Shown here: positions 1 to 51,690 of the stretch, one piece after another
How the letters are laid out: each line of letters starts with the position of its first letter
Position numbering within the stretch: position 1 is the first letter of the stretch
Assembly: GCA_963402885.1 (NCBI GenBank)
Contig: OY727093.1
Span: forward strand, 21,203,409 to 21,267,408
DNA length: 64,000 nucleotides
Source: Antedon bifida
Lineage: Eukaryota > Echinodermata > Crinoidea > Comatulida > Antedonidae
Direction of reading: 5' to 3'
Notes under the pieces: generated by a model
What the model saw: the letters and a program-made list of their open reading frames with translations, nothing else
Databases searched by the model: none
What the model was told of the DNA's origin: nothing
Program-made: the position numbers and the translations under genes

Positions 1-3000
1 AACAAGTTTTTTCGAAAATCACAACATGGTCTAAAACGTCTCCAAATGCGATTTGAAGCTATTCTGTACACTTTGATGTTTTGTGTGAAAAAGTTTTGTC
101 GAAATGCTCAAAATGTTCTAAAACGTTTTCAAATACCATATTAAGCTATTTTAAGCACTTTGATGTTTCTATGTTAACAAGTTTTTTCGAAAATCACAAA
201 ATGGTCTAAAACGTCTCAAAATGCGATTTGAAGCTATTTTAACCACTTTGGTGATTTTATGTTAACAATTTTTTTCGAAAATCACAAAATGGTCTAAAAC
301 GTCTCCCAATGCGATTTGAAGCTATTCTGTACACTTTGATGTTTTGTATGAAAAAGTTTTGCCGAAATGCTCAAAATGGTCTAAAACGTTTTCAAATACC
401 ATATTAAGCTATTTTGTGCACTTTGATGTTTTTGTGTGAAAAGTTTTATCCGAATGCTTAAAATGGTCTAAAACGGTTTCTAATGTGATTTTAAGCACTT
501 TGATGTTTTTATGTTAACAAGTTTTTTCGAAAATCACAAAATGGTCTAAAACGTCTCCAAATGCGATTTGAAGCTATTCAGTACACTTTGATGTTTTGAG
601 TGAAAAAGTTTTGTCGAAATGCTCAAAATGGTCTAAAACGTTTTCAAATACCATATTAAGCTATTTTGTGCACTTTGATGTTTTTGTGAGAAAAATTTTA
701 TCGAAATCCTTAAAATGGTCAAAAACGTTTTCTAATGTGATTTTAAGCACTTTGATGTTTCTATGTTAATAAGTTTTTTCGAAAATCACAAAATGGTCTA
801 AAACGTCTCAAAATGCGATTTGAAGCTATTTTAACCACTTTGGTGATTTTATGTTAACAAGTTTTTTCGAAATGCACAAAATGTCTGAAACGTCTCCAAA
901 TGCTATTTGAAGCTATTCTGTACACTTTGATGTTTTGTGTGAAAAAGTTTTGTCGAAATGCTCAAAATGTCTAAAACGTTTTCAAATACCATATTAAGCT
1001 ATTTTGTGCACTTTGATGTTTTTGTGTGAAAAGTTTTATCGAAATGCTCAAAATGGTCTAAAACGGTTTCTTTTGTGATTTTATGCACTTTGATGTTTTT
1101 GTGTAACCAAGTTTCGTCGAAATGCACAAAATGGTCTAAAACGTCTCCAAATGCGATTTGAAGCTATTCTGTACACTTTGATGTTTTGTGTGAAAAAGTT
1201 TTGTCGAAATGCTCAAAATGGTCTAAAACGTTTTTCAAATACCATATTAAGCTATTTTGTGCACTTTGATGTTTTTATGTGAAAAGTTTTATCGAAATGC
1301 TTAAAATGGTCTAAAACGGTTTCTGATGTGATTTTAAGCACTTTGATGTTTCTATGTTAACAAGTTTTTTCGAAAATCACAAAATGGTCTAAAACGTCTC
1401 AAAATGCGATTTAAAGCTATTCTAACCACTTTGGTGATTTTATGTTAACAAGTTTTTTCGAAATGCACAAAATGTCTAAAACGTCTCCAAATGCGATTTG
1501 AAGCTATTCTGTACACTTTGATGTTTTGTGTGAAAAAGTTTTGTCAAAATGCTCAACATGGTCTAAAACGTTTTCAAATACCATATTAAGTTATTTTGTG
1601 CACTTTGATGTTTTTGTGTGAAAAGTTTTATCGGAATGCTTAAAATGGTCTAAAACGGTTTCTAATGTGATTTTAAGCACTTTGATGTTTTTATGTTAAC
1701 AAGTTTTTTCGAAAATCACAAAATGGTCTAAAACGTCTCAAAATGCGATTTGAAGCTATTCTGTACACTTTGATGTTTTGAGTGAAAAAGTTTTGTCGAA
1801 ATGCTCAAAATGGTCTAAAACGTTTTCAAATACCATACTAAGCTATTTTGTGCACTTTGATGTTTTTGTGAGAAAAATTTTATCGAAATCCTTAAAATGG
1901 TCTAAAACGATTTCTAATGTGATTTTAAGCACTTTGATGTTTCTATGTTAATAAGTTTTTTCGAAAATCACAAAATGGTCTAAAACGTCTCAAAATGCGA
2001 TTTGAAGCTATTTTAACCACTTTGGTGATTTTATGTTAACAAGTTTTTTCGAAATGCACAAAATGTCTAAAACGTCTACAAATGCGATTTGAAGCTATTC
2101 TGTACACTTTGATGTTTTGTGTGAAAAAGTTTTGTCGAAATGCTCAAAATGTCTAAAACGTTTTCAAATACCATATTAAGCTATTTTGTGCACTTTGATG
2201 TTTTTGTGTGAAAAGTTTTATCGAAATGCTCAAAATGGTCTAAAACGGTTTCTTTTGTGATTTTAAGCACTTTGATGTTTTTGTGTAACCAAGTTTCGTC
2301 GAAATGCACAAAATGGTCTAAAACGTCTCCAAATGCGATTTGAAGCTATTCTGTACACTTTGATGTTTTGTGTGAAAAAGTTTTGTCGAAATGCTCAAAA
2401 TGGTCTAAAACGTTTTCAAATACCATTTTAGGCACTTTGATGTTTCTATGTTAACAAGTTTTTTCGAAAATCACAAAATAGTCTAAAACGTCTCCAAATG
2501 CGATTTGAAGCTATTCTGTATACTTTGATGTTTTGTGTGAAAAAGTTTTGTCGAAATGCTCAAAATGGTCTAAAACGTTTTCAAATACCATATTAAGCTA
2601 TTTTGTGCACTTTGATGTTTTTGTGAGAAATATTTTATCGAAATCCTTAAAATGGTCAAAAACGTTTTCTAATGTGATTTTAAGCACTTTGATGTTTCTA
2701 TGTTAATAAGTTTTTTCGAAAATCACAAAATGGTCTAAAACGTCTCAAAATGCGATTTGAAGCTATTTTAACCACTTTGGTGATTTTATGTTAACAATTT
2801 TTTTCGAAAATCACAAAATGGTCTAAAACGTCTCCAAATGCGATTTGAAGCTATTCTGTACACTTTGATGTTTTGTGTGAAAAAGTTTTGTCGAAATGCT
2901 CAAAATGGTCTAAAACGTTTTCAAATACCATATTAAGCTATTTTGAGCACTTTGATGTTTTTGTGTGAAAAGTTTTATCGAAATGCTTGAAATGGTCTAA

Positions 3001-6000
3001 AATGGTTTCTAATGTGATTTTAAGCACTTTGATGTTTTTATGTTAACAAGTTTTTTCGAAAATCACAAAATGGTCTAAAACGTCTCCAAATGCGATTTGA
3101 AGCTATTCTGTACACTTTGATGTTTTGTGTGAAAAAGTTTTGTCGAAATGCTCAAAATGGTCTAAAACGCTTTCAAATACCATATTAACCTATTTTGTGC
3201 ACTTTGATGTTTTTGTGTGAAAAGTTTTATCAAAATGCTTAAAATGGTCAAAAACGGTTTCTAATGTGATTTTAAGCACTTTGATGTTTCTATGTTAACA
3301 AGTTTTTTCGAAAATCACAAAATGGTCTAAAACGTCTCAAAATGCGATTTGAAGCTTTTCTAACCACATTGGTGATTTTATGTTAACAAGTTTTTTCGAA
3401 ATGCACAAAATGTCTAAAACGTCTCCAAATGCGATTTGAAGCTATTCTGTACACTTTGATGTTTTGTGTGAAAAAGTTTTGTCGAAATGCTCAAAATGGT
3501 CTAAAACGTTTTCAAATACCATATTAAGCTATTTTGTGCACTTTGATGTTTTTGTGTGAAAAGTTTTATCGAAATGCTCAAAATGGTCTAAAACGGTTTC
3601 TTATGTGATTTTAAGCACTTTGATGTTTTTGTGTAACCAAGTTTCGTCGAAATGCACAAAATGGTCTAAAACGTCTCCAAATGCAATTTGAAGCTATTCT
3701 GTACACTTTGATGTTTTGTGTGAAAAAGTTTTGTCGAAATGCTCAAAATGGTCTAAAACGTTTTCAAATACCATATTAAGCTATTTTGTGCACTTTGATG
3801 TTTTTGTGTGAAAAGTTTTATCGAAATGCTTAAAATGGTCTAAAACGGTTTCTAATGTGATTTTAAGCACTTTGATGTTTTTATGTTAACAAGTTTTTTC
3901 GAAAATCACAAAATGGTCTAAAACGTCTCCAAATGCGATTTGAAGCTATTCTGTACACTTTGATGTTTTGTGTGAAAAAGTTTTGTCGAAATGCTCAAAA
4001 TGGTCTAAAACGTTTTCAGATACCATATTAAGCTATTTTGTGCACTTTGATGTTTTTGTGAGAAAAATTATATCGAAATGCTTAAAATGGTCAAAAACGT
4101 TTTCTAATGTGATTTTAAGCCCTTTGATGTTTCTATGTTAACAAGTTTTTTCGAAAATCACAAAATGGTCTAAAACGTCTCAAAAAGCGATTTGAAGCTA
4201 CACTTTGGTGTTTTTATGTTAACAAGTTTATTCGAAAATCACAAAATGGTCTAAAACGTCTCCAAATGCGATTTGAAGCTATTCTGTACACTTTGATGTT
4301 TTGTGTGAAAAAGTTTTGTCGAAATGCTCAAAATGTTCTAAAACGTTTTCAAATACCATATTAAGCTATTTTGTGCACTTTGATGTTTTTGTGAGAAAAA
4401 TTTTATCGAAATCCTTAAAATGGTCAAAAACGTTTTCTAATGTGATTTTAGGCACTTTGATGTTTCTATGTTAACAAGTTTTTTCGAAAATCACAAAATG
4501 TTCTAAAACGTCTCAAAAAGCAATTTGAAGCTATTCTAAACACTTTGGTGTTTTTATGTTAACAAGTTTATTCGAAATGCACAAAATGTCTAAAACGTCT
4601 CCAAATTCGATTTGAAGCTATTCTGTACACTTTGATGTTTTGTGTGAAAAAGTTTTGTCGAAATGCTCAAAATGGTCTAAAACGTTTTCAAATACCATAT
4701 TAAGCTATTTTGTGCACTTTGATGTTTTTGTGTGAAAAGTTTTATCGAAATGCTCAAAATGGTCTAAAACGGTTTCTTATGTGATTTTAAGCACTTTGAT
4801 GTTTTTGTGTAACCAAGTTTCGTCGAAATGCACAAAATGGTCTAAAACGTCTCCAAATGCGATTTGAAGCTATTCTGTACACTTAGATGTTTTGTGTGAA
4901 AAAGTTTTGTCGAAATTCTCAAAATGGTCTAAAACGTTTTCAAATACCATATTAAACTATTTTGTGCACTTTGATGTTTTTGTTTGAAAAGTTTTATCGA
5001 AATGCTTAAAATGGTCTAAAACGGTTTCTAATGTGATTTTAAGCACTTTGATGTTTCTATGTTAACAAGTTTTTTCGAAAATCACAAAATGGTCTAAAAC
5101 GTCTCAAAATGCGATTTGAAGCTATTCTAACCACTTTGGTGATTTTATGTTAACAAGTTTTTTCGAAATGCACAAAATGTCTAAAACGTCTCCAAATGCG
5201 ATTTGAAGCTATTCTGTACACTTTGATGTTTTGTGTGAAAAAGTTTTGTCGAAATGCTCAAAATGGTCTAAAACGTTTTCAAATACCATATTAAGCTATT
5301 TTGTGCACTTTGATGTTTTTGTGTGAAAAGTTTTATCGAAATGCTTAAAATGGTCTAAAACGGTTTCTAATGTGATTTTAAGCACTTTGATGTTTCTATG
5401 TTAACAAGTTTTTTCGAAAATCACAAAATGGTCTAAAACGTCTCAAAATGCGATTTGAAGCTATTCTAACCACTTTGATGATTTTATGTTAACAAGTTTT
5501 TTCGAAATGCACAAAATGTCTAAAACGTCTCCAAATGCGATTTGAAGCTATTCTGTACACTTTGATGTTTTGTGTGAAAAAGTTTTGTCGAAATGCTCAA
5601 AATGGTCTAAAACGTTTTCAAATACCATATTAAGCTATTTTGTGCACTTTGATGTTTTTGTGTGAAAAGTTTTATCGGAATGCTTAAAATGGTCTAAAAC
5701 GGTTTCTAATGTGATTTTAAGCACTGTGATGATTTTATGTTAACAAGTTTTTTCGAAAATCACAAAATGGTCTAAAACGTCTCCAAATGCGATTTGAAGC
5801 TATTCTGTACACTTTGATGTTTTGTGTGAAAAAGTTTTGTCGAAATGCTCAAAATGGTCTAAAACGTTTTTAAATACCATATTAAGCTATTTTGTGCACT
5901 TTGATGTTTTTGTGTGAAAAATTTTATCGAAATCCTTAAAATGGTCAAAAACGTTTTCTAATGTGATTTTAAGCACTTTGATGTTTCTATGTTAACAAGT

Positions 6001-9000
6001 TTTTTCGAAAATCACAAAATGGTCTAAAACGTCTCAAAATGCGATTTGAAGCTATTCTAACCACTTTGGTGATTTTATGTTAACAAGTTTTTTCGAAAAT
6101 CACAAAATGGTCTAAAACGTCTCCAAATGCGATTTGAAGCTATTCTGTACACTTTGATGTTTTGTGTGAAAAAGTTTTGTCGAAATGCTCAAAATGGTCT
6201 AAACGTTTTCAAATACCATATTAAGCTATTTTGTGCACTTTGATGTTTTTGTGTGAAAAGTTTTATCGAAATGCTCAAAATGGTCTAAAACGGTTTCTTA
6301 TGTTATTTTAAGCACTTTGATGATTTTGTGTAACCAAGTTTCGTCGAAATGCACAAAATGGTCTAAAACGTCTCCAAATGCAATTTGAAGCTATTCTGTA
6401 CACTTTGATGTTTTGTGTGAAAAAGTTTTGTCGAAATGCTCAAAATGGTCTAAAACGTTTTCAAATACCATATTAAGCTATTTTGTGCACTTTGATGTTT
6501 TTGTGTGAAAAGTTTTATCGGAATGCTTAAAATGGTCTAAAACGGTTTCTAATTAGATTTAAAGCACTTTGGTGATTTTATGTTAACAAGTTTTTTCGAA
6601 ATGCACAAAATGTCTAAAACGTCTCCAAATGCGATTTGAAGCTATTCTGTACACTTTGATGTTTTGTGTGAAAAAGTTTTGTCGAAATGCTCAAAATCGT
6701 CTAAAACGTTTTCAAATACCATATTAAGCTATTTTGTGCACTTTGATGTTTTTGTGTGAAGAGTTTTATCGGAATGCTTAAAATGGTATAAAACGGTTTC
6801 TAATATGATTTTAAGCACTTTGACGTTTTTATGTTAACAAATTTTTTCGAAAATCACAAAATGGTCTAAAACGTCTCCAAATGCGATTTGAAGCTATTCT
6901 GTACACTTTGATGTTTTGTGTGAAAAAGTTTTGTCGAAATGCTCAAAATGGTCTAAAACGTTTTCAAATACCATATTAAGCTATTTTGTGCACTTTGATG
7001 TTTTTGTGTGAAAAGTTTTATCGAAATGCTTAAAATGGTCTAAAACGGTTTCTAATGTGATTTTAAGCACTTTGATGTTTCTATGTTAACAAGTTTTTTC
7101 GAAAATCACAAAATGGTCTAAAACGTCTCAAAATGCGATTTGAAGCTATTCTAACCACTTTGGTGATTTTATGTTAACAAGTTTTTTCGAAAATCACAAA
7201 ATGGTCTAAAACGTCTCAAAATGCGATTTGAAGCTATTCTGTACACTTTGATGTTTTGTGTGAAAAAGTTTTGTCGAAATGCTCAAAATTGTCTAAAACG
7301 TTTTCAAATACCATATTAAGATATTTTGTGCACTTTGATGTTTTTGTGTGAAAAGTTTTATCGGAATGCTTAAAATGGTCTAAAACGGTTTCTAATGTGA
7401 TTTTAAGCACTTTGATGTTTTTATGTTAACATGTTTTTTCGAAAATCACAAAATGGTCTAAAACGTCTCCAAATGCGATTTGAAGCTATTCTGTACACTT
7501 TGATGTTTTGTGTGAAAAAGTTTTGTCGAAATGCTCAAAATGGTCTAAAACGTTTTCAAATACCATATTAAGCTATTTTGTGCACTTTGATGTTTTTGTG
7601 TGAAAAATTTTACCAAAATCCTTAAAATGGTCAAAAACGTTTTCTAATGTGATTTTAAGCACTTTGATGTTTCTATGTTAATAAGTTTTTTCGAAAATCA
7701 CAAAATGGTCTAAAACGTCTCAAAATGCGATTTGAAGCTATTTTAACCACTATGGTGATTTTATGTTAACAATTTTTTTCGAAAATCACAAAATGGTCTA
7801 AAACGTCTTCAAATGCGATTTGAAGCTATTCTGTACACTTTGATGTTTTGTGTGAAAAAGTTTTGTCGAAATGCTCAAAATGGTCTAAAACGTTTTCAAA
7901 TACCATATTAGGCTATTTAGTGCACTTTGATGTTTTTGTGAGAAAAATTTTATCGAAATCCTTAAAATGGTCAAAAACGTTTTCTAATGTGATTTTAAGC
8001 ACTTTGATGTTTCTATGTTAATAAGTTTTTTCGAAAATCACAAAATGGTCTAAAACGTCTCCAAATGCGATTTGAAGCTATTCTGTACACTTTGATGTTT
8101 TGTGTGAAAAAGTTTTGTCGAAATGCTCAAAATGATCTAAAACGTTTTCAAATACCATATTAAGCTATTTTGTGCACTTTGATGTTTTTGTGTGAAAAGT
8201 TTTATCGGAATGCTTAAAATGGTCTAAAACGGTTTCTAATGTGATTTTAAGCACTTTGATGTTTTTATGTTAACAAGTTTTTTCGAAAATCACAAAATGG
8301 TCTAAAACGTCTCAAAATGCGATTTGAAGCTATTCTGTACACTTTGATGTTTTGTGTGAAAACGTTTTGTAGAAATGCTAAAAATGGTCTAAAACGTTTT
8401 CAAATACCATATTAAGCTATTTTGTGCACTTTGATGTTTTTGTGTGAAAACTTTTATCGGAATCCTTAAAATGGTCTAAAACGGTTTCTAATGTGATTTT
8501 AAGCACTTTGATGTTTTTATGTTAACAAGTTTTTTCGAAATGCACAAATTGTCTAAAACGTCTCCAAATGCGATTTGAAGCTATTCTGTACACTTTGATG
8601 TTTTGTGTGAAAAAGTTTTGTCAAAATGGTCTAAAACGTTTTTAAATACCATATTAAGCTATTTTGTGCACTTTGATGTTTTTGTTTGAAAAGTTTTATC
8701 GGAATGCTTAAAATGGTCTAAAACGGTTTCTAATGTGATTTTAAGCACTTTGATGTTTTTATGTTAACAAGTTTTTTCGAAAATCACAAAATGGTCTAAA
8801 ACGTCTCCAAATGCGATTTGAAGCTATTCTGTACACTTTGATGTTTTGTGTGAAAAAGTTTTGTCAAAATGGTCTAAAACGTTTTCAAATACCATATTAA
8901 GCTATTTTGAGCACTTTGATGTTTTTGTGTGAAAAGTTTTATCGAAATCCTTGAAATGGTCTAAAACGGTTTCTAATGTGATTTTAAGCACTTTGATGTT

Positions 9001-11100
9001 TTTATGTTAACAAGTTTTTTCGAAAATCACAAAATGGTCTAAAACGTCTCCAAATGCGAATTGAAGCTATTCTGTACACTTTGATGTTTTGTGTGAAAAA
9101 GTTTTGTCGAAATGCTCAAAATGGTCTAAAACGTTTTCAGATACCATATTAAGCTATTTTGTGCACTTTGATGTTTTTGTGTGAAAAGTTTTATCAAAAT
9201 GCTTAAAATGGTCAAAAACGGTTTCTAATGTGATTTTAAGCACTTTGATGTTTCTATGTTAACAAGTTTTATCGAAAATCACAAAATGGTCTAAAACGTC
9301 TCAAAATGCGATTTGAAGCTATTCTAACCACTTTGGTGATTTTATGTTAACAAGTTTTTTCGAAATGCACAAAATGTCTAAAACGTCTCCAAATGCGATT
9401 TGAAGCTATTCTGTACACTTTGATGTTTTGTGTGAAAAAGTTTTGTCGAAATGCTCAAAATGGTCTAAAACGTTTTCAAATACCATATTAAGCTATTTTG
9501 TGCACTTTGATGTTTTTGTGTGAAGAGTTTTATCGGAATGCTTAAAATGGTCTAAAACGATTTCTAATATGATTTTAAGCACTTTGACGTTTTTATGTTA
9601 ACAAATTTTTTCGAAAATCACAAAATGGTCTAAAACGTCTCCAAATGCGATTTGAAGCTATTCTGTACACTTTGATGTTTTTGTGTGAAAAGTTTTACCA
9701 AAATGCTTAAAATGGTCAAAACCGGTTTCTAATGTGATTTTAAGCACTTTGATGTTTCTATGGTAACAAGTTTTTTCGAAAATCACAAAATGGTCTAAAA
9801 CGTCTCAAAATGCGATTTGAAGCTATTTTAACCACTATGGTGATTTTATGTTAACAATTTTTTTCGAAAATCACAAAATGGTCTAAAACGTCTTCAAATG
9901 CGATTTGAAGCTATTCTGTACACTTTGATGTTTTGTGTGAAAAAGTTTTGTCGAAATGCTCAAAATGGTCTAAAAAGTTTTCAAATACCATATTAAGCTA
10001 TTTTGTGCACTTTGATGTTTTTGTGTGAAAAGTTTTATCGGAATGCTTAAAATGGTCTAAAACGGTTCTAATGTGATTTTAAGCACTTTGATGTTTTTAT
10101 GTTAACAAGTTTTTTCGAAAATCACAAAATGGTCTAAAACGTCTCCAAATGCGAATTGAAGCTATTCTGTACACTTTGATGTTTTGTGTGAAAAAGTTTT
10201 GTCGAAATGCTCAAAATGGTCTAAAACGTTTTCAGATACCATATTAAGCTATTTTGTGCACTTTGATGTTTTTGTGTGAAAAGTTTTATCAAAATGCTTA
10301 AAATGGTCAAAAACGGTTTCTAATGTGATTTTAAGCACTTTGATGTTTCTATGTTAACAAGTTTTATCGAAAATCACAAAATGGTCTAAAACGTCTCAAA
10401 ATGCGATTTGAAGCTATTCTAACCACTTTGGTGATTTTATGTTAACAAGTTTTTTCGAAATGCACAAAATGTCTAAAACGTCTCCAAATGCGATTTGAAG
10501 CTATTCTGTACACTTTGATGTTTTGTGTGAAAAAGTTTTGTCGAAATGCTCAAAATGGTCTAAAACGTTTTCAAATACCATATTAAGCTATTTTGTGCAC
10601 TTTGATGTTTTTGTGTGAAGAGTTTTATCGGAATGCTTAAAATGGTCTAAAACGATTTCTAATATGATTTTAAGCACTTTGACGTTTTTATGTTAACAAA
10701 TTTTTTCGAAAATCACAAAATGGTCTAAAACGTCTCCAAATGCGATTTGAAGCTATTCTGTACATTTTGATGTTTTGTGTGAAAAAGTTTTGTCGAAATG
10801 CTCAAAATGGTCTAAAACGTTTTCAAATACCATATTAAGCTATTTTGTGCACTTTGATGTTTTTGTGTGAAAAGTTTTACCAAAATGCTTAAAATGGTCA
10901 AAACCGGTTTCTAATGTGATTTTAAGCACTTTGATGTTTCTATGGTAACAAGTTTTTTCGAAAATCACAAAATGGTCTAAAACGTCTCAAAATGCGATTT
11001 GAAGCTATTCTAACCACTTTGGTGATTTTATGTTAACAAGTTTTTTCGAAAATCACAAAATGGTCTAAAACGTCTCCAAATGCAATTTGAAGCTATTCTG
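1..11100 (+). repeat. Satellite array, segment 1
   Basis: Continuous tandem satellite entering from the left edge. Each monomer begins near CACTTTGATGTTTT, contains AAAATGGTCTAAAACG, and is about 87, 78 or 88 bp long (for example starts at 69, 156, 244, 332, 419, 496, 584). Four diverged monomer types alternate: GTACAC.., GTGCAC.., AAGCAC.. and AACCAC../GTAACCAAG... They form composite units of about 253 bp, or about 341 bp when the extra 88-bp monomer is present. Larger blocks are also repeated: a marker GCGAATTGAAG recurs at about 9056 and 10151, a 1095-bp step. No convincing coding sequence is present; open frames arise because 87 and 78 are multiples of three. The array resumes after the transposon at 18423. 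Confidence 0.97.
11098..11100. repeat. Target-site duplication CTG, left copy
   Basis: CTG directly abuts the transposon's GGGCGG end and is repeated at 18423-18425. Joining the flanks at one CTG restores the normal satellite text ATTCTGTACAC, as seen uninterrupted at 20197-20199. A 3-bp TWA or CWG duplication is usual for PIF/Harbinger. Confidence 0.88.
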
Positions 11101-11115
11101 GGGCGGATTGCAATA
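11101..11115 (+). repeat. Harbinger left terminal inverted repeat
   Basis: GGGCGGATTGCAATA, an exact complement of 18408-18422. TTGCAATA recurs inside the left end near 11189 and inside the right end, so the transposase or Myb-like protein may bind several copies (inference). Confidence 0.93.
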
Positions 11116-11125
11116 TAAAGACTTT

Positions 11126-11153
11126 GTCTTAGGCTTAGATCTAAGCCTAAGAC
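11126..11153. repeat. Perfect 28-bp palindrome in Harbinger left subterminal region
   Basis: A perfect inverted repeat centred on AGATCT between 11139 and 11140, built from GTCTTAGGCTTAGA and its complement. The same words (CTTAGGCTTA, TCTAAGCC) occur in the right subterminal region at about 18250-18400, which suggests a functional end rather than chance. It could be a dimer-binding site or a cruciform. Confidence 0.85.
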
Positions 11154-13465
11154 CCCTCGCGAAAGTCTTAGCTAAGCCTCTCAGCAAAGTCGATTGCAAT
11201 ATCGCGGTCTAAGCTAAGCCCGATAGAAAACCTTAGTTACCACCGTTGAGGGCATCATTTGTGTGTACAAAAATAATAAAAGCTATCGTAAATAGATAAA
11301 CGCCCTCAAGCTATAGACAAAATAACACGTGGGTAAAACTCGCGCGAGAAAGTGCTATCAATCATTAAATGACTTTTCTAACAACCAATAACAACACGCC
11401 ATTTACTACAAAAAAGGGATGATTTATGAATATTTATGAGACCCCGCAACCGTGTACGTTGCACGTGTGGATTTTAATAAGGAGGTGTGTGTGTAAACGA
11501 AATATTAGAACAAAATCGAAACACATTTTTATACCACTGACGGCTGAATATTAATTACATATAGGCCTAATTAGTAAGTTTTATATTGTTTATTACTACT
11601 ACTTTACTCTATGACTAGGCTCCTCTAGTCTATCTAGGCCTAGCTAGTAGTATTATAGTAGTACTGTACTGCATATAATACAGCCCGTGGCCTAGCTAGG
11701 CGGGCCTAATGAATTAGTGTAGGCCTAACCTTTCATTCAAGATTAAATTCCACTTATTATTATGCATGTGTAGCCGGCAAATGTACTATCTAGCCTGTAG
11801 AGTATATAGACCTATAATAATAGACTGGCCAATTAATAATATTTCACATTATATTATATTATATATACTGTAATACGATAGTAGTATACCTATACTATAT
11901 AATATTTATTATTATTTATAATAATATATGCTTTCCTTTTTAGACAAATGTGTATGAGGCCTACTTCAACAAGTTCAACAGTCAGAGAATAGATAAAGAT
12001 GGAAAACAACGAATTATACTACTAGGCCTGTTTCACTTTTGTTGAAGGCCAAGCAAGGCTCAGCTAGTAGTATGATTTTTTACATACATCTGGATTATAC
12101 TAGGCCTATTTCATCATGAACTTTGTGTGTAATTTTTTGCAGCAATTTACAACGATGATATTGCCAAAATGCTGTACGAAACAAACATTGACTGAGAATC
12201 AAAATAATATTACTGCATGGCTGTGTACTAAATTGTACTGTAATAATATTATAGTACTAGTAGTAGTAGGCCTAGTAGTAGTAGGGCCTAGATAGTAGCA
12301 AGTAATTACAGATTCATCATCAGCCTATGTTGACACTACACTACTAGGCCTAGCCTACAGAGTACTACAAAACATGGATATATATTTAATGGAATGGCAA
12401 AGCTAAGCAGTAAATAAAAGAATTAAGGTATGCATGTTACTTGACATTGTTAATTGGTTTAAACTAATATTAATAATAATATTAATAATGTGTTCTACTT
12501 GCACTTGTTTTTTAATGTTTTTCTAACAAGTTTAATTTATACACCACTACCTACCTCCTCCCTCCCTTATAAATTATTATTAGATAGTAGGCCTAGTCGT
12601 TGATGTTTATTTAATATTGGTTAACTCCTTTTTTTTGGAATTTGTAATTTTTGTATTGTTCCATATGGACAGTTCAGTCTGAAATAAAGTTGAATTGAAA
12701 ATGAATTGATTGGTATTGTAATTTTGTTTTAGATTCATGCTGAAGAATTTTAGTACCAGTATTGTTATATATAGTGTTTCCATGGGGCCTTTATATTTAA
12801 GGTTAACAATTTTAATTTATACAGTATTTGTTTGTTGTAAACAAATATTAGGATGCAGAATATTTCATTATTTAATTAAAATAAAAGCAATTCTGCTTAA
12901 ATAACGTATACAATTTTATAATAATAATCATTGTTATTATTTGAATATTATTTATAATTAATAACTATCTAGCCTGAGTACAGTAAGAATTGAATATATG
13001 TTTTTTAAATCACTGAAATACTAATTCTATCATTTTTAAATCAAGACAACTTTGTATACTGAACTTCTTTAAGTAGTAGTACTAACTACAGTAATAAAGA
13101 GGCCTAAACTGTAGCCAGGCCAAATTAAATAGCCTAGCTTTGTTTACATTTCCTAGCCTAGACTAAACTTAACTAGCCTAGGCGGTCAGTATTTAGTAGA
13201 GTAGGCCTAGTCTAGTGATCGCCGATGTTTAAATTTTTTTTTCTTTATATCACTATTTGGTTAATTCGATGAATAAATCATTGTGGGAGATCCGCATTAT
13301 ATATTAATTATTAAAGCTTTAAAAAAATGAAAAGACTCTTGATTGTACTATTTTATGTTACGGTATCGCGCGGGGATTTTCCCTTCGTTTTATCGTCTGA
13401 CTACTGACAAACGACTCGGGAGTTATTAATAGGCGGCCTAGTTGTAGTATAGTAATAACGCGACG
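11154..13465. other. Non-coding 5' region of the Myb-like gene
   Basis: About 2.3 kb with no convincing coding sequence, rich in AGGCCTA/TAGGCCTAG words and AT-rich simple repeats. The stretch at about 12656-12712 (a GAAATAAAGTTGAATTGAA-type string) resembles the 3' tail of a LINE or SINE, but no body is recognisable upstream. The promoter of the 13466 gene must lie here or in the left end; I cannot place a TATA box with confidence. Confidence 0.6.
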
Positions 13466-14407
13466 ATGGACAACAAGCGTAGGCCGACGTTCACCGAAAC
13501 TGAAAAAATATGCCTTATAGAAGCTTTCTCATACAAAAAAGACATTTTGAACTCAAAATTTTCGTCAAGAGTTTCGTTGCACTCAAAGGCTGAGGCATGG
13601 AAAGAGGTTTTAAGTAGTGTAAATGCCGTAAATGGTGAGGTTAATCGAACCGTCGACGAAATTTAAAAAAAATGGAAAAATTTATTGGCAGATGCCAAAA
13701 AAGACCTGAATCGTCAAAAAAATCCTCCTACTGGAGGGGGTCCACAATTTGTTATGCCGAAATGCAGTGAAATGGTTATCAATGTATACGGTGGGGAAGA
13801 CTCCAGTTTGTTTGCTGGTTTATCCAGTGGAGTGGAAAGTTCAATTGGGAGTCGGTCAGCACTATCATCAGCTGCAGCAGGTGTGTATTTTTTTTTTAAT
13901 AGGGCTAGCCTAGGCCTAGGCATATTCATAAGCCTAGAGGTCCTAGGCCTATTTGTTATGAATTTGGTCACAGGTGTACTAATTCAAATTTTAAATTCAA
14001 TGCCTATGTATTGCAAACATTGTTAACATAGGCCTAGTTGTAAACAGTAATAATATTATTATTAATTTTAAATATTTTTTATAAAATAGCAAATGACGAT
14101 AATAAATGAGTTTCATTTATTTTAAGGACCATCATCATTATTAGAGCTCCCTACCAATATTCCCTCGGCCTCGACATCTCAAGAACCAGCAGAACCGATG
14201 AGGAAAAGAACAAAACATGGTGATGATGATGACGCATACCAATCTTTTTTAAAGTGGCAGACGGTATTAGCTCAGAAGAAAGTTGAGAAAATTGAATTGG
14301 AGAAAATTAAACTAAATGAAGAGGCCAAATACTACAAAGTTGCAACACAGAAGTGTGAATTAGAGCTAGCTGTATTGCAGTCCCAAGTTACAATTTTTGA
14401 AGAATAA
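13466..14407 (+). pseudogene. Harbinger Myb/SANT-like DNA-binding accessory protein, one nonsense codon
   Basis: Two exons, 13466-13880 and 14127-14407. The donor is CAG|GTGTGT, the acceptor TTTAAG|GACC, and the intron phase matches (G|GA), giving 231 codons before the stop. The N-terminus (RRPTFTETEKICLIEAF ... KKWKNLLADAKKDL) is a Myb/SANT-like three-helix domain, as in the second protein of Harbinger elements, which helps bind DNA and bring in the transposase. The C-terminus (about residues 160-231) is charged and likely coiled-coil (KKVEKIELEKIKLNEEAKYY). The ATG lies in a good context (CGACGATGG). Codon 67 is TAA (13664-13666) within an A-rich run, exactly where KKKWKNL is expected. The frame is open on both sides, so one A-to-T change explains it. 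It may be a true inactivation, a base-call error, or readthrough. Confidence 0.85.
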
Positions 14408-14409
14408 TT

Positions 14410-16567
14410 AATTAAATTTGGTGTTTACAAATAATTTGCAAATCTTTAATATATTATATATAAATTACAATTTATATACAATTTAAATATACTGTATTTA
14501 ATGAATAATTCATTAAATTTCTATTGGTGTTTACAAATAATTTAACAATCTCTAATATATTATATATAAATTACAATTTATATATAAATACTGTATTTAA
14601 TGAATAATTCATTAAATTTCTATTGGTGTTTACAAATAATTAACAATCTCTAATATATTATATATCAATTACAATTTATATATAATTTAAATACTGTATT
14701 TAATGAGTCATTCATTAAATTTCTATTGGTGTTTACAAATAATTAACAATCTCTAATATATTATATATAAATTACAATTTATATATAATTTAAATACTGT
14801 ATTTAATGAGTAATTCATTAAATTTCTATTGGTGTTTACAAATAATTAACAATCTCTAATATATTATATATAAATTACAATTTATATATAAATACTGTAT
14901 TTAATGAGTAATTCATTAAATTTCTATTGGTGTTTACAAATAATTAACAATCTCTAATATATTATATATAAATTACAATTTATATATAAATACTGTATTT
15001 AATGAGTAATTCATTAAATTTCTATTGGTGTTTACAAATAATTAACAATCTCTAATATATTATATATAAATTACAATTTATATATAAATACTGTATTTAA
15101 TGAGTAATTCATTAAATTTCTATTGGTGTTTACAAATAATTAACAATCTCTAATATATTATAAATTACAATTTATATTTAAATACTGTATTTAGTGAGTA
15201 ATTCATTAAATTTCTATTGGTGTTTACAAATAATTTAACAATCTCTAATATATTATATATAAATTACAATTTATATATAAATACTGTATTTAATGAGTAA
15301 TTCATTAAATTTCTATTGGTGTTTACAAATAATTAACAATCTCTAATATATTATATATAAATTACAATTTATATATAAATACTGTATTTAATGAGTAATT
15401 CATTAAATTTCTATTGGTGTTTACAAATAATTAACAATCTCTAATATATTATATATAAATTACAATTTATATATAAATACTGTATTTAATGAGTAATTCA
15501 TTAAATTTCTATTGGTGTTTACAAATAATTAACAATCTCTAATATATTATATATAAATTACAATTTATATATAAATACTGTATTTAATGAGTAATTCATT
15601 AAATTTCTATTGGTGTTTACAAATAATTAACAATCTCTAATATATTATATATAAATTACAATTTATATATAAATACTGTATTTAATGAGTAATTCATTAA
15701 ATTTCTATTGGTGTTTACAAATAATTAACAATCTCTAATATATTATAAATTACAATTTATATTTAAATACTGTATTTAATGAGTAATTCATTAAATTTCT
15801 ATTGGTGTTTACAAATAATTTAACAATCTCTAATATATTATATATAAATTACAATTTATATATAAATACTGTATTTAATGAGTAATTCATTAAATTTCTA
15901 TTGGTGTTTACAAATAATTAACAATCTCTAATATATTATATATAAATTACAATTTATATATAAATACTGTATTTAATGAGTAATTCATTAAATTTCTATT
16001 GGTGTTTACAAATAATTAACAATCTCTAATATATTATATATAAATTACAATTTATATATAAATACTGTATTTAATGAGTAATTCATTAAATTTCTATTGG
16101 TGTTTACAAATAATTAACAATCTCTAATATATTATATATAAATTACAATTTATATATAAATACTGTATTTAATGAGTAATTCATTAAATTTCTATTGGTG
16201 TTTACAAATAATTAACAATCTCTAATATATTATATATAAATTACAATTTATATATAAATACTGTATTTAATGAGTAATTCATTAAATTTCTATTGGTGTT
16301 TACAAATAATTAACAATCTCTAATATATTATAAATTACAATTTATATTTAAATACTGTATTTAATGAGTAATTCATTAAATTTCTATTGGTGTTTACAAA
16401 TAATTTAACAATCTCTAATATATTATATATAAAGTACAATTTATATATAAATACTGTATTTAATGAGTAATTCATTAAATTTCTATGGGTGTTTACAAAT
16501 AATTTACAAATCTTTAATATATTATATATAAATTACAATTTATATACAATTTAAATATACTGTATTT
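14410..16567. repeat. AT-rich minisatellite, 98-103 bp monomers, inside Harbinger
   Basis: About 21 tandem copies of a unit with TTTCTATTGGTGTTTACAAA and an imperfect hairpin TATATAAATT-AC-AATTTATATA. Starts of CTATTGGTGT at 14521, 14620, 14723, 14826, 14924 and 15022 give spacings of 99, 103, 103, 98 and 98. A shortened monomer (TATTATAAATTAC) recurs at 15156, 15741 and 16326, exactly 585 bp apart, so six monomers make a higher-order unit. The first (from about 14430) and last (from about 16495) monomers share a variant ('CAAATCTTTAATATATT', 'TATACAATTTAAATATAC') not found inside. It separates the 3' ends of the two convergent Harbinger genes. Confidence 0.95.
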
Positions 16568-16692
16568 AATATATTAATACCTGTATTATGTACAATGATG
16601 ATGCTGTTATGACAGCGCCACAATTATTTTAATTAAAAATTGAATCTAATAAACCTTTAACATTTATACAGTATAAACATTTTTTTGCAAAT

Positions 16693-18234
16693 TTAATTAG
16701 CAATTGCATTTGCAACCATCTGCCTGATTGCACGTCCATTGTTGTCTTCAATTTGTTCATTGCGCTGCCCTGCATCCCCTATATCAATATCCTCTTCATT
16801 TTCAATTTCTGGTAAACCCAAATTACGAGCCATATTATGAAGGACCATTGTTGCTGCTACCACAGCGCAGGTTCTGTGAGGCTGCATACGGTTTTCTTCG
16901 TGCATGCACCGAAACCGCCTTTTCCATGCACCTATTGTCCTCTCGACAATACTTCTTGTTATGGAATGTACATTGTTATACCTTCGTTCTTCCCGAGTAA
17001 TTGGATTTATAAAGGGTGTCAACAGAAATGGCCGTAAAGCATACCCAGAATCCCCCAACAAATATCCTTCTGGCATTTCACCATTTTCAAAGGCTACGCC
17101 AATACCACTCTCTCTGAAAATTCTGGAATCGTGCGTTGAACCGGGCCAACGCACTACACAATTTGTGAATCGCATGTTTGCGTCACATACGACTTGGATG
17201 TTCAGGCTATGATATCCTTTTCTGTTAACATAAACAAATTCGTCAACTGTTGGAGCTTGTATCCGGACATGAGTGCCATCAACCGCTCCAATGACATTTG
17301 GGAAACCAGATATGTCGTGAAATTTAATTTTTGTTTCCCTAATGCTTGCTGCATCCATCGGGAAAAACACATACTCATTCATATGTCTCTGTAAGGCCAG
17401 TGAAACTTGCCTTACAATTCGGCAAGCTGTTGATTCATGAATTCCTACAAACAAAGGAATACAACATATTATAATCTTGAATTAACCTAAAGTATTAAAT
17501 AACAATTGATAATAGAGAATATGTATAAATTTAATTTTATAAATTTATAAGAAAAATGTAACTTAATTTATATATTAAAATTATAGATATTTTTACCATA
17601 ATTTTATTTTTATTAAAAACTAAACTAAAAGATAAAAAAAAAACAAACAAGCAGCCTATTTACTAGTACAAGCTTACTAATTGGCTTGTTGACTCCGCTC
17701 ACTCACCATACCGCCGCCGTGCAGCTGGTGAATATTTTTAAATGGGTAAATAAACTTAAGGTGCGAGAGAGTAAACTAGCGCCGGCGCGATACTAGCGCC
17801 GGCGCGATAGTCATTGTCTAGGCCTAGGCCTAGGCCTAAATAATTATAATTTATTTTACTTAATTAGACTAAGTATTTACTAATTTTATACCTTCATTAT
17901 TATCACTAAAAACTAAACAATATTATTATTGTAGTTGTGCTAATTATTAATATTAATACTTACCAGAAAGATCGCCGGAAATGTTATGCATTGACCCACT
18001 TGCATAAAATCTAAGTGCTGTGCACACTTGGAGGATCGGTGGGACTGCATTATTCCTATTCGTTACATTCAAATCAATTGCTAGATTATCGCTAAGCGTC
18101 ATTATACTTTGCCGGTTGAACCGAAATTTTCTATATAATTCGTTGTCATCATATTTATCAAGCGGATGCAATCTATCGCGAAAAATACGACCTATTCTCT
18201 CGCGATAGCCTTGCACCGCGATAAAGTTCGCCAT
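16693..18234 (-). CDS. Harbinger DDE transposase (HARBI1-like), two exons
   Basis: Exon 1 is 18234-17964 and exon 2 is 17444-16693. The donor is CTG|GTAAGT, the acceptor TTTGTAG|GAATTC, and the phase matches (G|GA), giving 340 residues, the usual size for Harbinger transposases. The start ATG has a good context (AAAATGGCG). Residues 1-125 hold the helical N-terminal part (ELYRKFRF, ALRFYASGSMHNISGDLSG, STACRIVRQVS). The catalytic DDE_4 domain follows, with Asp146 in GAVDGTHV, Asp222 in LLGDSGYAL and Glu258 in IVERTIGAWKRRF. The 35 residues between Asp222 and Glu258 fit the family D35E spacing, and the conserved PGSTHDSRIF is also present. There is no internal stop or frameshift. It cuts and joins DNA at the element's terminal inverted repeats, in the nucleus, with the Myb-like partner. 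All catalytic motifs are present, so it may be active. Confidence 0.93.
17775..17838. repeat. GC-rich palindromic doublet and AGGCCT run in the transposase intron
   Basis: A 17-bp unit, ACTAGCGCCGGCGCGAT, is directly repeated at 17775-17791 and 17792-17808. Each copy contains the 10-bp palindrome GCGCCGGCGC. It is followed by a CTAGGC/CTAGGCCTAGGCCT run at 17818-17838. This is strikingly GC-rich against the AT-rich intron (17445-17963). Confidence 0.85.
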
Positions 18235-18407
18235 TTTTTTTGTCTTCGCGACGAATTCTAAGCCTGCTACGAGGAGGCTTAGAATCTAAGACCGCGAAAC
18301 GTCCTCTCGTAGGCTTAGACTTTATATTGCAAGAGGCTTTATTCTAAGACCTCCATTGAGGGCGGTATAAAGCCTAGGCTTAAGTCTAAGACCGCCGTTA
18401 AGACCTT

Positions 18408-18422
18408 TATTGCAATCCGCCC
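18408..18422 (-). repeat. Harbinger right terminal inverted repeat
   Basis: TATTGCAATCCGCCC, an exact complement of the left end. The next inner bases diverge (left ATATAAAG, right complement ATAAAGG). The subterminal region 18240-18400 repeats CTAAGCC/CTTAGAC words. Confidence 0.93.
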
Positions 18423-18425
18423 CTG
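18423..18425. repeat. Target-site duplication CTG, right copy
   Basis: Matches 11098-11100. The satellite continues directly as CTGTACACTTTGATG. Confidence 0.88.
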
Positions 18426-21400
18426 TACACTTTGATGTTTTGTGTGAAAAAGTTTTGTCGAAATGCTCAAAATGTTCTAAAACGTTTTCAAATACCATAT
18501 TAAGCTATTTTGTGCACTTTGATGTTTTTGTGAGAAAAATTTTATCGAAATCCTTAAAATGGTCAAAAACGTTTTCTAATGTGATTTTAAGCACTTTGAT
18601 GTTTCTATGTTAACAAGTTTTTTCGAAAATCACAAAATGGTCTAAAACGTCTCAAAATGCGATTTTAAGCTATTTTAACCACTTTGGTGATTTTATGTTA
18701 ACAAGTTTTTTCGAAAATCACAAAATGGTCTAAAACGTCTCCAAATGCGATTTGAAGCTATTCTGTACACTTTGATGTTTTGTGGGAAAAAGTTTTGTTG
18801 AAATGCTCAAAATGGTCTAAAACGTTTTCAAATACCATATTAAGCTATTTTATGCACTTTGATGTTTTTGTGTGAAAAGTTTTATCGAAATGCTCAAAAT
18901 GGTCTAAAACGGTTTCTTATGTTATTTTAAGCACTTTGATGATTTTGTGTAACCAAGTTTCGTCGAAATGCACAAAATGGTCTAAAACGTCTCCAAATGC
19001 AATTTGAAGCTATTCTGTACACTTTGATGTTTTGTGTGAAAAAGTTTTGTCGAAATGCTCAAAATGGTCTAAAAAGTTTTCAAATACCATATTAAGCTAT
19101 TTTGTGCACTTTGATGTTTTTGTGTGAAAAGTTTTATCGGAATGCTTAAAATGGTCTAAAACGGTTCTAATGTGATTTTAAGCACTTTGATGTTTTTATG
19201 TTAACAAGTTTTTTCGAAAATCACAAAATGGTCTAAAACGTCTCCAAATGCGAATTGAAGCTATTCTGTACACTTTGATGTTTTGTGTGAAAAAGTTTTG
19301 TCGAAATGCTCAAAATGGTCTAAAACGTTTTCAGATACCATATTAAGCTATTTTGTGCACTTTGATGTTTTTGTGTGAAAAGTTTTATCAAAATGCTTAA
19401 AATGGTCAAAAACGGTTTCTAATGTGATTTTAAGCACTTTGATGTTTCTATGTTAACAAGTTTTATCGAAAATCACAAAATGGTCTAAAACGTCTCAAAA
19501 TGCGATTTGAAGCTATTCTAACCACTTTGGTGATTTTATGTTAACAAGTTTTTTCGAAATGCACAAAATGTCTAAAACGTCTCCAAATGCGATTTGAAGC
19601 TATTCTGTACACTTTGATGTTTTGTGTGAAAAAGTTTTGTCGAAATGCTCAAAATGGTCTAAAACGTTTTCAAATACCATATTAAGCTATTTTGTGCACT
19701 TTGATGTTTTTGTGTGAAGAGTTTTATCGGAATGCTTAAAATGGTCTAAAACGATTTCTAATATGATTTTAAGCACTTTGACGTTTTTATGTTAACAAAT
19801 TTTTTCGAAAATCACAAAATGGTCTAAAACGTCTCCAAATGCGATTTGAAGCTATTCTGTACATTTTGATGTTTTGTGTGAAAAAGTTTTGTCGAAATGC
19901 TCAAAATGGTCTAAAACGTTTTCAAATACCATATTAAGCTATTTTGTGCACTTTGATGTTTTTGTGTGAAAAGTTTTACCAAAATGCTTAAAATGGTCAA
20001 AACCGGTTTCTAATGTGATTTTAAGCACTTTGATGTTTCTATGGTAACAAGTTTTTTCGAAAATCACAAAATGGTCTAAAACGTCTCAAAATGCGATTTG
20101 AAGCTATTCTAACCACTTTGGTGATTTTATGTTAACAAGTTTTTTCGAAAATCACAAAATGGTCTAAAACGTCTCCAAATGCAATTTGAAGCTATTCTGT
20201 ACACTTTGATGTTTTGTGTGAAAAAGTTTTGTCGAAATGCTCAAAATGTTCTAAAACGTTTTCAAATACCATATTAAGCTATTTTGTGCACTTTGATGTT
20301 TTTGTGAGAAAAATTTTATCGAAATCCTTAAAATGGTCAAAAACGTTTTCTAATGTGATTTTAAGCACTTTGATGTTTCTATGTTAACAAGTTTTTTCGA
20401 AAATCACAAAATGGTCTAAAACGTCTCAAAATGCGATTTTAAGCTATTTTAACCACTTTGGTGATTTTATGTTAACAAGTTTTTCGAAAATCACAAAATG
20501 GTCTAAAACGTCTCCAAATGCGATTTGAAGCTATTCTGTACACTTTGATGTTTTGTGGGAAAAAGTTTTGTTGAAATGCTCAAAATGGTCTAAAACGTTT
20601 TCAAATACCATATTAAGCTATTTTATGCACTTTGATGTTTTTGTGTGAAAAGTTTTATCGAAATGCTCAAAATGGTCTAAAACGGTTTCTTATGTTATTT
20701 TAAGCACTTTGATGATTTTGTGTAACCAAGTTTCGTCGAAATGCACAAAATGGTCTAAAACGTCTCCAAATGCAATTTGAAGCTATTCTGTACACTTTGA
20801 TGTTTTGTGTGAAAAAGTTTTGTCGAAATGCTCAAAATGGTCTAAAAAGTTTTCAAATACCATATTAAGCTATTTTGTGCACTTTGATGTTTTTGTGTGA
20901 AAAGTTTTATCGGAATGCTTAAAATGGTCTAAAACGGTTTCTAATGTGATTTTAAGCACTTTGATGTTTTTATGTTAACAAGTTTTTTCGAAAATCACAA
21001 AATGGTCTAAAACGTCTCCAAATGCGAATTGAAGCTATTCTGTACACTTTGATGTTTTGTGTGAAAAAGTTTTGTCGAAATGCTCAAAATGGTCTAAAAC
21101 GTTTTCTAATGTGATTTTAAGCACTTTGATGTTTTTATGTTAACAAGTTTTTTCGAAAATCACAAAATGGTCTAAAACGTCTCCAAATGCGATTTGAAGC
21201 TATTCTGTACACTTTGATGTTTTGTGGGAAAAAGTTTTGTTGAAATGCTCAAAATGGTCTAAAACGTTTTCAAATACCATATTAAGCTATTTTATGCACT
21301 TTGATGTTTTTGTGTGAAAAGTTTTATCGAAATGCTCAAAATGGTCTAAAACGGTTTCTTATGTTATTTTAAGCACTTTGATGATTTTGTGTAACCAAGT

Positions 21401-33300: not shown

Positions 33301-35829
33301 TGATTTTAAGCACTTTGATGTTTTTGTGTAACCAAGTGTCATCGAAATGCACAAAATGGTCTAAAACGTCTCCAAATGCGATTTGAAACTATTCTAAGCA
33401 CTTTGGTGTTTTTATGTTAACAAGTTTTTTCGAACTGCACAAAATGGTCTAAAACGTCTCCAAATGCGATTTGAAGCTATTCTGTACAATTTGATGTTTT
33501 GTGTGAAAAAGTTTTGTCCAACGGCTCAAATTGGTCTAAAACGTTTTTCAATACGATATTAAGCTATTTTGTACACTTTGATGTTTTTGTGTGAAAAGTT
33601 TTATCGAAATGCTCAAAATGGTCTAAAACGGTTTCTAATGTGATTTTAAGCACTTTGATGTTTTTGTGTAACCAAATTTCATCGGAATGCACAAAATGGT
33701 CTAAAACGTCTCCAAATGCGATTTGAAGCTATTCTAAGCACTTTGGTGTTTTTATGTTAACAAGTTTTGTCGAAATGCTCAAAATGGTCTAAAACGTTTT
33801 CAAATACCATATTAAGCTATTTTATGCACTTTGATGTTTTTGTGTGAAAAGTTTTATCGAAATGCTCAAAATGTTCTAAAACTGTTTCTAAAGTGATTTT
33901 AAGCACTTTGATGTTTTTGTGTAACCAAGTTTCATCGAAATCCACAAAATGGTCTAAAACGTCTCCAAATGCGATTTGAAGCTATTCTTAGGACTTTGAT
34001 GTTTTGTGTGAAAAAGTTTTGTCGAAAAGCTCAAAATGGTCTAAAACGTTTTCAAATACTATATTAAGCTATTTTGTGCACTTTGATGTTTTTGTGTAAC
34101 CAAGTTTCATCGAAATGCTCAAAATAGTCTCAAGCGTTTTTTAATGTGATTTTAAGCACTTTGATGTTTTTGTGTAACCAAGTGTCATCGAAATGCACAA
34201 AATGGTCTAAAACGTCTCCAAATGCGATTTTAAGCTATTCTAAGGACTTTGGTGTTTTTATGTTAACACTTTTTTTCGAAAATCACAAAATGGTCTAAAA
34301 CGTCTCCAAATGCGATTTGAAGCTATTCTTAGCACTTTGATGTTTTGTGTGAACAAGTTTTGTCGAAAAGCTCAAAATGGTCTAAAACGTTTTCAAATAC
34401 CATATTAAGCTATTTTGTGCACTTTGATGTTTTTGTGTAACCAAGTTTCATCGAAATGCTCAAAATGGTCTCAAACGGTTTTAATGTGATTTTAAGCACT
34501 TTGATGTTTTTGTGTAACCAAGTGTCATCGAAATGCACAAAATGGTATAAAACGTCTCCAAATGCGATTTGAAACTATTCTAAGGACTTTGGTGTTTTTA
34601 TGTTAACAATTTTTTTCGAAAATCACAAAATGGTCTAAAACGTCTCCAAATGCGATTTGAAGCTATTCTGTACACTTGATGATGTTTTGTGTGAAAAAGT
34701 TTTGTCCAAATGCTCAAATTGGTCTAAAACGTTTTTAAATACGATATTAAGATATTTTGTGCACTTTGATGTTTTTGTGTGAAAAGTTTTATCGAAATGC
34801 TCAAAATGGTTTAAAACGGATTCTAATGTGATTTTAAGCACTTTGATGTTTTTGTGTAACCAAGTTTCATCAAAATGCACAAAATGGTCTAAAACGTCTC
34901 CAAATGCGATTTGAAGCTATTCTTAGCACTTTGATGTTTTGTGTGAAAAAGTTTTGTCGAAAAGCACAAAATGGTCTAAAACGTTTTCAAATACTATATT
35001 AAGCTATTTTGTGCACTTTGATGTTTTTGTGTAACCAAGTTTCATCGAAATCCTCAAAATGGTCTCAAGCGGTTTTTAATGTGATTTGAAGCACTTTGAT
35101 GTTTTTGTGTAACCAAGTGTCATCGAAATGCACAAAGTGGTCTAAAACGTCTCCAAATGCGATTTTAAGCTATTCTAAGGACTTTGGTGTTTTTATAGTA
35201 ACACGTTTTTTCGAAAATCACAAAATGGTCTAAAACGTCTCCAAATGCGATTTGAAGCTATTCTGTACACTTTGATGTTTTGTGTTAAAAAGTTTTGTCG
35301 AAAAGCTCAAAATGGTCTAAAGCGTTTTCAAATACCATATTAAGCTATTTTGTGCACTTTGATGTTTTTCTGTAACCAAGTTTCATCGAAATGCTCAAAA
35401 TGGTCTCAAACGGTTTTTAATGTGATTTTAAGTACTTTGATGTTTTTGTGTAACCAAGTGTCATCGAAATGCACAAAATGGTCTAAAACGTCTCCAAATG
35501 CGATTTGAAGCTATTCTGTACACTTTGATGTTTTGTGTTAAAAAGTTTTGTCCAAATGCTCAAATTGGTCTAAAACGTTTTTAAATACGATATTAAGCTA
35601 TTTTGTGCACCTTGATGTTGTTGTGTGAAAAGTTTTATCGAAATGCTCAAAATGGTCTAAAACGGTTTCTAATGTGATTTTAAGCACTTTGATGTTTTTG
35701 TGTAACCATGTTTCATCGAAATGCACAAAATGGTCTAAAACGTCTCCAAATGCGATTTGAAGCTATTCTAAGCACTTTGGTGTTTTTATGTGAACAAGTT
35801 TTTTCGAAAATCACAAAATGGTCTAAAAC
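30399..35829 (+). repeat. Satellite array, segment 4
   Basis: Same satellite, more diverged towards the right, with frequent GTAACCAAGTTTCATCG monomers. A 944-bp step is visible: AATGATCTAAAACG at 30537 and 31481, GAAAAGATCAAAATGG at 31044 and 31988. The array ends at a palindromic strand switch. Confidence 0.95.
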
Positions 35830-35844
35830 GTTTTAGACCATTTT
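35815..35844. repeat. 30-bp perfect palindrome at the satellite strand switch
   Basis: The satellite core AAAATGGTCTAAAAC is followed directly by its complement, centred between 35829 and 35830. Everything to the left is in plus orientation, everything to the right in minus orientation, so this is the exact inversion joint. Confidence 0.95.
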
Positions 35845-47544: not shown

Positions 47545-47673
47545 GCAAGTTGCGAGTCGGAAAATGCGAGTTGCGAGTCGGAAAATGCGAGTTGCGAGTC
47601 GGTAAATGTGAGTTGCGAGTCAGGAAATGCGAGTTGCGAATCGGAAAATGCGGGTTGCGAGTCAGGAAATGCG
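47545..47673 (+). repeat. 21-bp minisatellite, six copies
   Basis: Unit GTTGCGAGTCGGAAAATGCGA, with TGCGA starts at 47551, 47572, 47593, 47614, 47635 and 47656 (exact 21-bp spacing). The same family occurs in reverse orientation at 60236-60540. Confidence 0.95.
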
Positions 47674-51600: not shown

Positions 51601-51690
51601 AAAACACCAATCATTCAACCTCATGAATATATGACTAAAAGAGGCCGACAAATACACAAACCATCACATTATAAAGATTATTATGAGTAG
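48680..51690 (+). pseudogene. Ty3/gypsy LTR-retrotransposon gag-pol remnant, reverse transcriptase deleted
   Basis: Gag starts near 48690 (KVAMLLCMMGKEYIKA, LAKFDGYFEPKK) with a one-base frameshift near 48930. Gag ends in zinc knuckles (CQKCGNQHSKRNC, then YRHCNKVGHYARC with the first Cys lost). The aspartic protease follows (FKIDTAAECSVI, VLSGKDSVRLNL). The frame stops at 50012. Only the start of the reverse transcriptase remains (HLPAALREPTKIKLE) before a deletion joining near 50095 to RNase H (SDITVETDHMPLV, KDIPVADALSRA). Integrase has its zinc-binding part (HQSHLGIVKCKQLA, CDICQ), Asp in VATDLF, a frameshift near 50850, Asp in SDNGPQF and Glu in NGMAERAVQ. Its C-terminal tail continues in another frame to a stop at 51690, after a small 15-bp duplication near 51310-51345. 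No LTRs are recognised. It is not functional. Confidence 0.9.

Follow-up and report, generated by a model that had tools for sequence, protein, structure and literature searches.

Does the transposon that interrupts a satellite array of Antedon bifida represent a recent insertion, and can it still move under its own power? The question is raised by a stretch of 64,000 nucleotides (the window; C1:21203409-21267408), which was analysed as a whole together with searches of the 315.6-Mb genome assembly. For COX1, located on contig C27 of the assembly, the best reading at conserved positions takes AAA for Asn, ATA for Ile, AGR for Ser, and TGA for Trp; this was assigned to the echinoderm mitochondrial code, although an alternative flatworm code gives the same reading. 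A previous interpretation based on the letters of the window (the sequence-only reading) had described a complete, young Harbinger element beside a natural empty site, and had proposed that it may still be mobile.

Ends of the element and the unoccupied site

The left end of the element, GGGCGGATTGCAATA, and its reverse complement at the right end each occur once in the window. Their perfect pairing ends at 15 bp, and they start with GGGCGG. The perfect 15-bp inverted ends reported in the sequence-only reading were recovered at 11101-11115 and 18408-18422, and the CTG duplication at 11098-11100 and 18423-18425 (Table 1). A chance inverted repeat was dropped as an explanation, because both ends and matching duplications are common to nine long copies in the genome.

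Table 1. Positions of the element, its predicted genes and the flanking satellite blocks in the window
Feature	Position	Strand	Basis or remark
Whole DNA transposon, 7,322 bp	11101..18422		Inverted ends without mismatch, duplicated 3-bp target, empty site; eight more long copies in the genome
Left terminal inverted repeat	11101..11115	+	Perfect 15-bp match
Right terminal inverted repeat	18408..18422	-	Perfect 15-bp match
Target-site duplication CTG, left	11098..11100		Single CTG at empty site
Target-site duplication CTG, right	18423..18425		Single CTG at empty site
Transposase exon 1	17964..18234	-	Predicted; no Pfam match alone
Transposase exon 2, three presumed catalytic residues	16693..17444	-	Pfam PF13359 DDE_Tnp_4, E 1.7e-40
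Myb/SANT-like gene exon 1, predicted	13466..13880	+	In-frame TAA at 13664-13666 (codon 67)
Myb/SANT-like gene exon 2, predicted, open to its stop	14127..14407	+	Pfam search up to E 1 without a match
98-bp tandem array, 21.6 copies	14418..16546		Separates the two genes, which converge on it with their 3' ends
Left flank block, identical to 19002-20199	9903..11100		1,198 bp, zero differences
Right flank block, compared with 20200-21105	18426..19331		906 bp, two one-base indels, zero substitutions
Paralogous block without the element	19002..21105		Overlaps right flank block 18426..19331
Paralogous unoccupied target site CTG	20197..20199		Long flanks on both sides

The host sequence around the transposon is a satellite with monomers of ~87 bp. 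The orientation of this array flips beyond 35,828, where the reverse-complement consensus occupies 35828-37996. The equality of 10061-11100 and 19160-20199 noted previously is true and was understated, since the identity extends over the whole left flank block. On the right side, the reported equality of the sequence after 18423 with that after 20197 stands as regards substitutions, whereas the two one-base indels show that it is not exact. The overlap between the block without the element and the right flank block indicates a tandem unit of 1,774 bp, present in ~2.2 copies.

When the element was removed from the array, the exact match spanning the joined junction (9903 onward against 19002 onward) was 1,483 bp long, the longest among the 725 exact repeats with a length of 100 bp or more. 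This result identifies the CTG at 20197-20199 as the paralogous empty site, and the alignment of the flanks confirms its proposed identity as a natural unoccupied copy. The 60 bases around the joined junction have five further perfect occurrences in the array; located by the base that follows the junction, these lie at 3702, 6399, 19018, 20791, and 21460. As such short matches are common in the satellite, the site is singled out only by its long flanks. The empty site proves that the target duplication is 3 bp in size.

The sequence-only reading also held that the empty site shows the insertion to have followed the duplication of the block. This is the simplest order and the likely one, although it falls short of proof, because excision could mimic it. 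If the element had been present before the duplication and had later been lost from one copy by precise excision, the same sequence trace would be left. Such precise excision, in which the element leaves together with one of the two 3-bp repeats, is described as usual in the superfamily where it was analysed; for mPing in yeast, it accounted for 109 of 110 events (PMC2836001), and the order of events at this locus is for this reason inferred. However, the excision history costs an extra event where an insertion into one repeat unit suffices, and the low divergence of the family argues against it, so that we consider it improbable.

The block without the element might also be an assembly artefact, if the animal was heterozygous for the insertion and its two alleles were joined in tandem. 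A tandem satellite is hard to assemble, and the two blocks exhibit zero substitutions in about 2.1 kb. Alleles of an outbred marine animal are, however, expected to show substitutions over this length. In addition, the array contains a second long stretch that is duplicated exactly (1,261 bp, at 23160/27671), which indicates that recent duplication is normal in it. An artefact is therefore very improbable, and insertion into one of two tandem units remains the preferred reading.

Elsewhere in the window, retroelement remains occupy 50146-57449. An integrase zinc-binding domain lies at 50146-50877, followed at 50913-51464 by a partial integrase core whose match did not reach the Pfam cut-off, and the frame at 55641-57449 encodes a reverse transcriptase domain. 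Two arrays of related 21-bp units, TGCGAGTTGCGAGTCGGAAAA and TTTCCGACCCGCAACTCGCAT, lie at 47544-47673 and 60242-60536, respectively.

Copies of the element in the genome

The 15-bp end occurs 183 times in the genome with at most one mismatch, as compared to four times for a reversed control pattern. The 100 matches listed (79 exact, 21 with one mismatch) were examined, and long copies with imperfect ends could therefore be missed. Among these 100 matches, at least 26 pairs of ends face each other within 10 kb: nine span 3.7-8.5 kb, sixteen span 383-925 bp, and in one the nearest ends are 2.4 kb apart. All nine long copies, which include that in the window (L025), have perfect ends and are flanked by identical 3-bp duplications, which read CAG in five copies, CTG in three, and CCG in one; C precedes the duplication in seven and G follows it in seven. 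For the other elements L039-L042, matching 3-bp repeats were observed at the outer ends in every case (CAG, CAT, CAG, and CTG, respectively), and L039 contains an extra unpaired left end, flanked by TAG.

The pairwise divergence of the long copies, computed from three segments, not all of which are present in every copy, was 0.5% or less in 27 of 36 pairs. Eight of the nine pairs above this value involve L023 (0.8-1.5%), in which 12 differences cluster in one short, apparently misaligned stretch, and the ninth is L029-L030 (0.8%). The window copy differs from the others by 0.08-0.5%, but by 0.83% from L023, a value that partly reflects the misaligned-looking stretch. The sequence-only reading had called the element young and proposed a search for further copies with these ends; the nine long copies found, whose divergence across sites is mostly 0.5% or less, agree with that description.

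In the nine long copies, the 98-bp internal array comprises between 2.7 and 21.6 repeats, and thus appears to expand or shrink between copies of the element. It was also considered as a free genomic satellite, and this was rejected, as the nine long copies account for at least 58 of at least 61 genome matches (11 candidates were scored, which makes these counts lower bounds). The remaining matches comprise two in the locus of an older copy (L032) and one at C10:16981589.

One long copy, L027 (C1:27485653-27494477, element at 501-8325 of the locus), is 7,825 bp long and has both ends and a CAG duplication, but neither gene has a match in it. Units of ~891-901 bp make up its inner ~5.4 kb, roughly two in direct and then roughly four in inverted orientation, and the inverted units are 100% identical to one another in the matches listed. 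Older relatives of the family, most of them broken, cluster at C8:19.26-21.10 Mb (L033-L038), with transposase and Myb fragments at ~67-94% DNA identity. Two of these loci, L036 and L037, are near-identical stretches 347 kb apart that carry an open Myb segment.

An open transposase and an interrupted Myb-like gene

The splice sites of both genes were predicted by eye. After removal of one predicted GT-AG intron, the transposase frame is open and encodes 340 amino acids, in line with the earlier statement that it carries its motifs without a stop. The motifs VDGTH, GDSGY, and VERTI contain D146, D222, and E258, which we take to be the catalytic residues, with 35 residues between D222 and E258. 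Among relatives with 44-62% identity, all three motifs have matches in L022, L044, and L045, and L035 has counterparts of the first two. A solved structural relative was also sought; three weak PDB sequence matches were obtained (best E 0.31), none of them convincing.

Both exons are open in all seven long copies that have both (L023, L025, L026, L028, L029, L030, and L031), including L030, which carries a 1.6-kb insert within the intron. For the two other long copies, exon 1 is missing in L024, and no transposase match was found in L027. Only five codons vary among the seven open copies, four synonymously and one between Ile and Val; the chance of at most one non-synonymous change among five variable codons is 0.009-0.021, depending on the transition weight. 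A 762-bp stretch of the gene has a full-length match in eight copies, including that of the window, at an identity rounding to 100%. No further near-identical transposase was present among the 14 genome matches, the next match being at 93%.

For the Myb-like gene, the situation is different: it is whole in none of the nine long copies. The domain was recognized through the homologous open exon 1 of L029, which matches the whole of Pfam PF13873 (E 2e-18). The TAA at codon 67 is common to the window copy, L026, and L030, which lie at three sites on two contigs, and L030 additionally has a nine-base deletion upstream of it. L024 and L029 have AAA in place of the TAA, together with an early frameshift in L024 and the loss of exon 2 in L029. 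In L023, L027, L028, and L031, no match to the window's exons was found at E 1e-10. These results do not support the description of the window element as complete.

The presence of the same stop at unrelated sites indicates that the interrupted form has spread. L028 and L031, like L027, diverge from the window sequence near base 1700 of its element, where both carry sequence that matches the inner units of L027 at the same 79%. Since L028 and L031 share this structure and bear the transposase without the Myb-like gene, a form without this gene also appears to have spread.

A search of the genome for the Myb-like gene gave 33 matches. The best candidates outside the long copies for a whole gene belonging to the window family were L036 and L037 (87% over residues 1-127), which were dropped because they have no match to the transposase or to the element's ends. 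As judged from its open frame, exon 1 of L029 could still yield a shortened working protein. The search covered one assembly, and whole copies of the gene may exist in the second haplotype or in further individuals.

Classification and the source of the second protein

As described in PMC4482050, NuwaI elements of the PHIS superfamily have CWG duplications, ends of 12-61 bp usually starting with GGG, and a DDE transposase together with a Myb/SANT gene, and their autonomous candidates average ~4.5 kb. The hosts given there are 16 animal genomes, including fish, beetle, crustacean, mollusc, and anthozoan, with no echinoderm in that list. In the present family, the duplication is CAG or CTG in eight of the nine long copies and CCG in one, with its 3-bp size confirmed by the empty site; the 15-bp ends begin with GGGCGG; the transposase matches PF13359 (E 1.7e-40); and a Myb/SANT gene is present, though interrupted in the window copy. 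PIF/Harbinger elements in the narrow sense have TWA duplications in the same account, and this type was rejected, as the duplications are CNG and none of the nine long copies has TWA.

By these described features of duplication, ends, and two genes, the window transposon fits the NuwaI group of PIF/Harbinger-like elements, and the name Harbinger in the sequence-only reading is supported in this broader sense but not under the TWA definition. The host is likewise an animal, and the duplication was checked through paralogous empty sites both in PMC4482050 and here. In contrast to the NuwaI average given there, the element is 7.3 kb long, about 2.1 kb of which is the 98-bp array, and its Myb gene is broken. 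A potentially active, autonomous PHIS element has both genes intact (PMC4482050), whereas the TAA at codon 67 interrupts that of the window copy. Therefore, the earlier suggestion of continued mobility stands as far as the open transposase is concerned, but not for movement of this copy under its own power.

The likeness to rice Ping, Pong, and mPing, as described in PMC2836001, extends to the pair of genes, a transposase and a Myb-like ORF1, and to the movement of non-coding copies in trans, with the proteins of one element serving another. These elements differ in their plant host, in a 3-bp duplication that is usually TAA, and in an ORF1 that is needed, and intact in the active ones. Both proteins are required in Ping/Pong and in Harbinger3_DR, and those of Ping and Pong are interchangeable (PMC2836001).

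Overall, the window element is very probably a recently inserted and itself probably non-autonomous long copy of a NuwaI-type family, PIF/Harbinger-like and CWG-duplicating. The satellite units would have been duplicated first; a DDE transposase would then have cut a source copy and pasted it at a CTG in one of the two tandem units. Because the Myb-like protein of the window copy is truncated inside its DNA-binding domain, this protein would have come in trans, either from an intact copy outside the assembly or from a sister family in the same genome.

A candidate for the latter was found through the Myb-like matches at 49-51% identity, which comprise four stretches on C11, C12 (two, one with a stop), and C14; the C14 and C11 loci were fetched (L044 and L045). 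The L044 element is 2,855 bp long, is flanked by CAG at either end, and terminates in GGGTGGATTGCTATA and GGGCGGATTGCTATA; the sister-family ends differ from those of the window family at 1 or 2 of 15 bases. The transposase and three Myb segments of L044 appear open, and its transposase is 52% identical to that of the window in an alignment that includes one intron. L045 is near-identical to L044 (8 mismatches in 2,857 bp), although its right end was looked for and not found. The sister family thus resembles the window family in gene layout, ends, and the CAG duplication of L044, and differs in its length of 2.9 kb, in having no 98-bp array, and in that both genes are apparently open. Judged by its ends and frames, it could supply the Myb-like protein to the window family. 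The flank to the right of the L044 element corresponds to the inverted flank to the left of the L045 element at 98%, as if the same repeat had been hit.

The shared stop at unrelated sites, together with L028 and L031, suggests that the copies moved either with help in trans or without the protein. The latter would mean that the lineage has abandoned the Myb-like protein and that its transposase acts alone. This would be consistent with a transposase that is whole in seven of the eight copies with any of it and a Myb-like gene that is whole in none of the five with any (Fisher p 0.005, related copies being treated as independent). However, the stop is one base from an open form, and L024 and L029, which do not have it, carry different lesions, suggesting that the loss of the gene may be recent. 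Supply in trans is also the simpler assumption, and both proteins are required in the systems of PMC2836001; a transposase acting alone is accordingly quite improbable.

Supply in trans remains the preferred explanation for an element that is an ordinary young member of an already known kind of transposon. More speculatively, and in our view unlikely, a NuwaI lineage may keep multiplying with a transposase that is open and apparently conserved even as the Myb-like partner is decaying, the partner being unneeded or the lineage depending on a second, intact NuwaI family, as a naturally split two-protein transposon. The locus provides a clear-cut case of a young NuwaI-type family, with an empty site adjoining the element, in an echinoderm, a group absent from the NuwaI host list of PMC4482050. 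As most long copies keep an open transposase gene whereas the accessory gene is lost or broken in all nine, the source of the second protein becomes a testable question.
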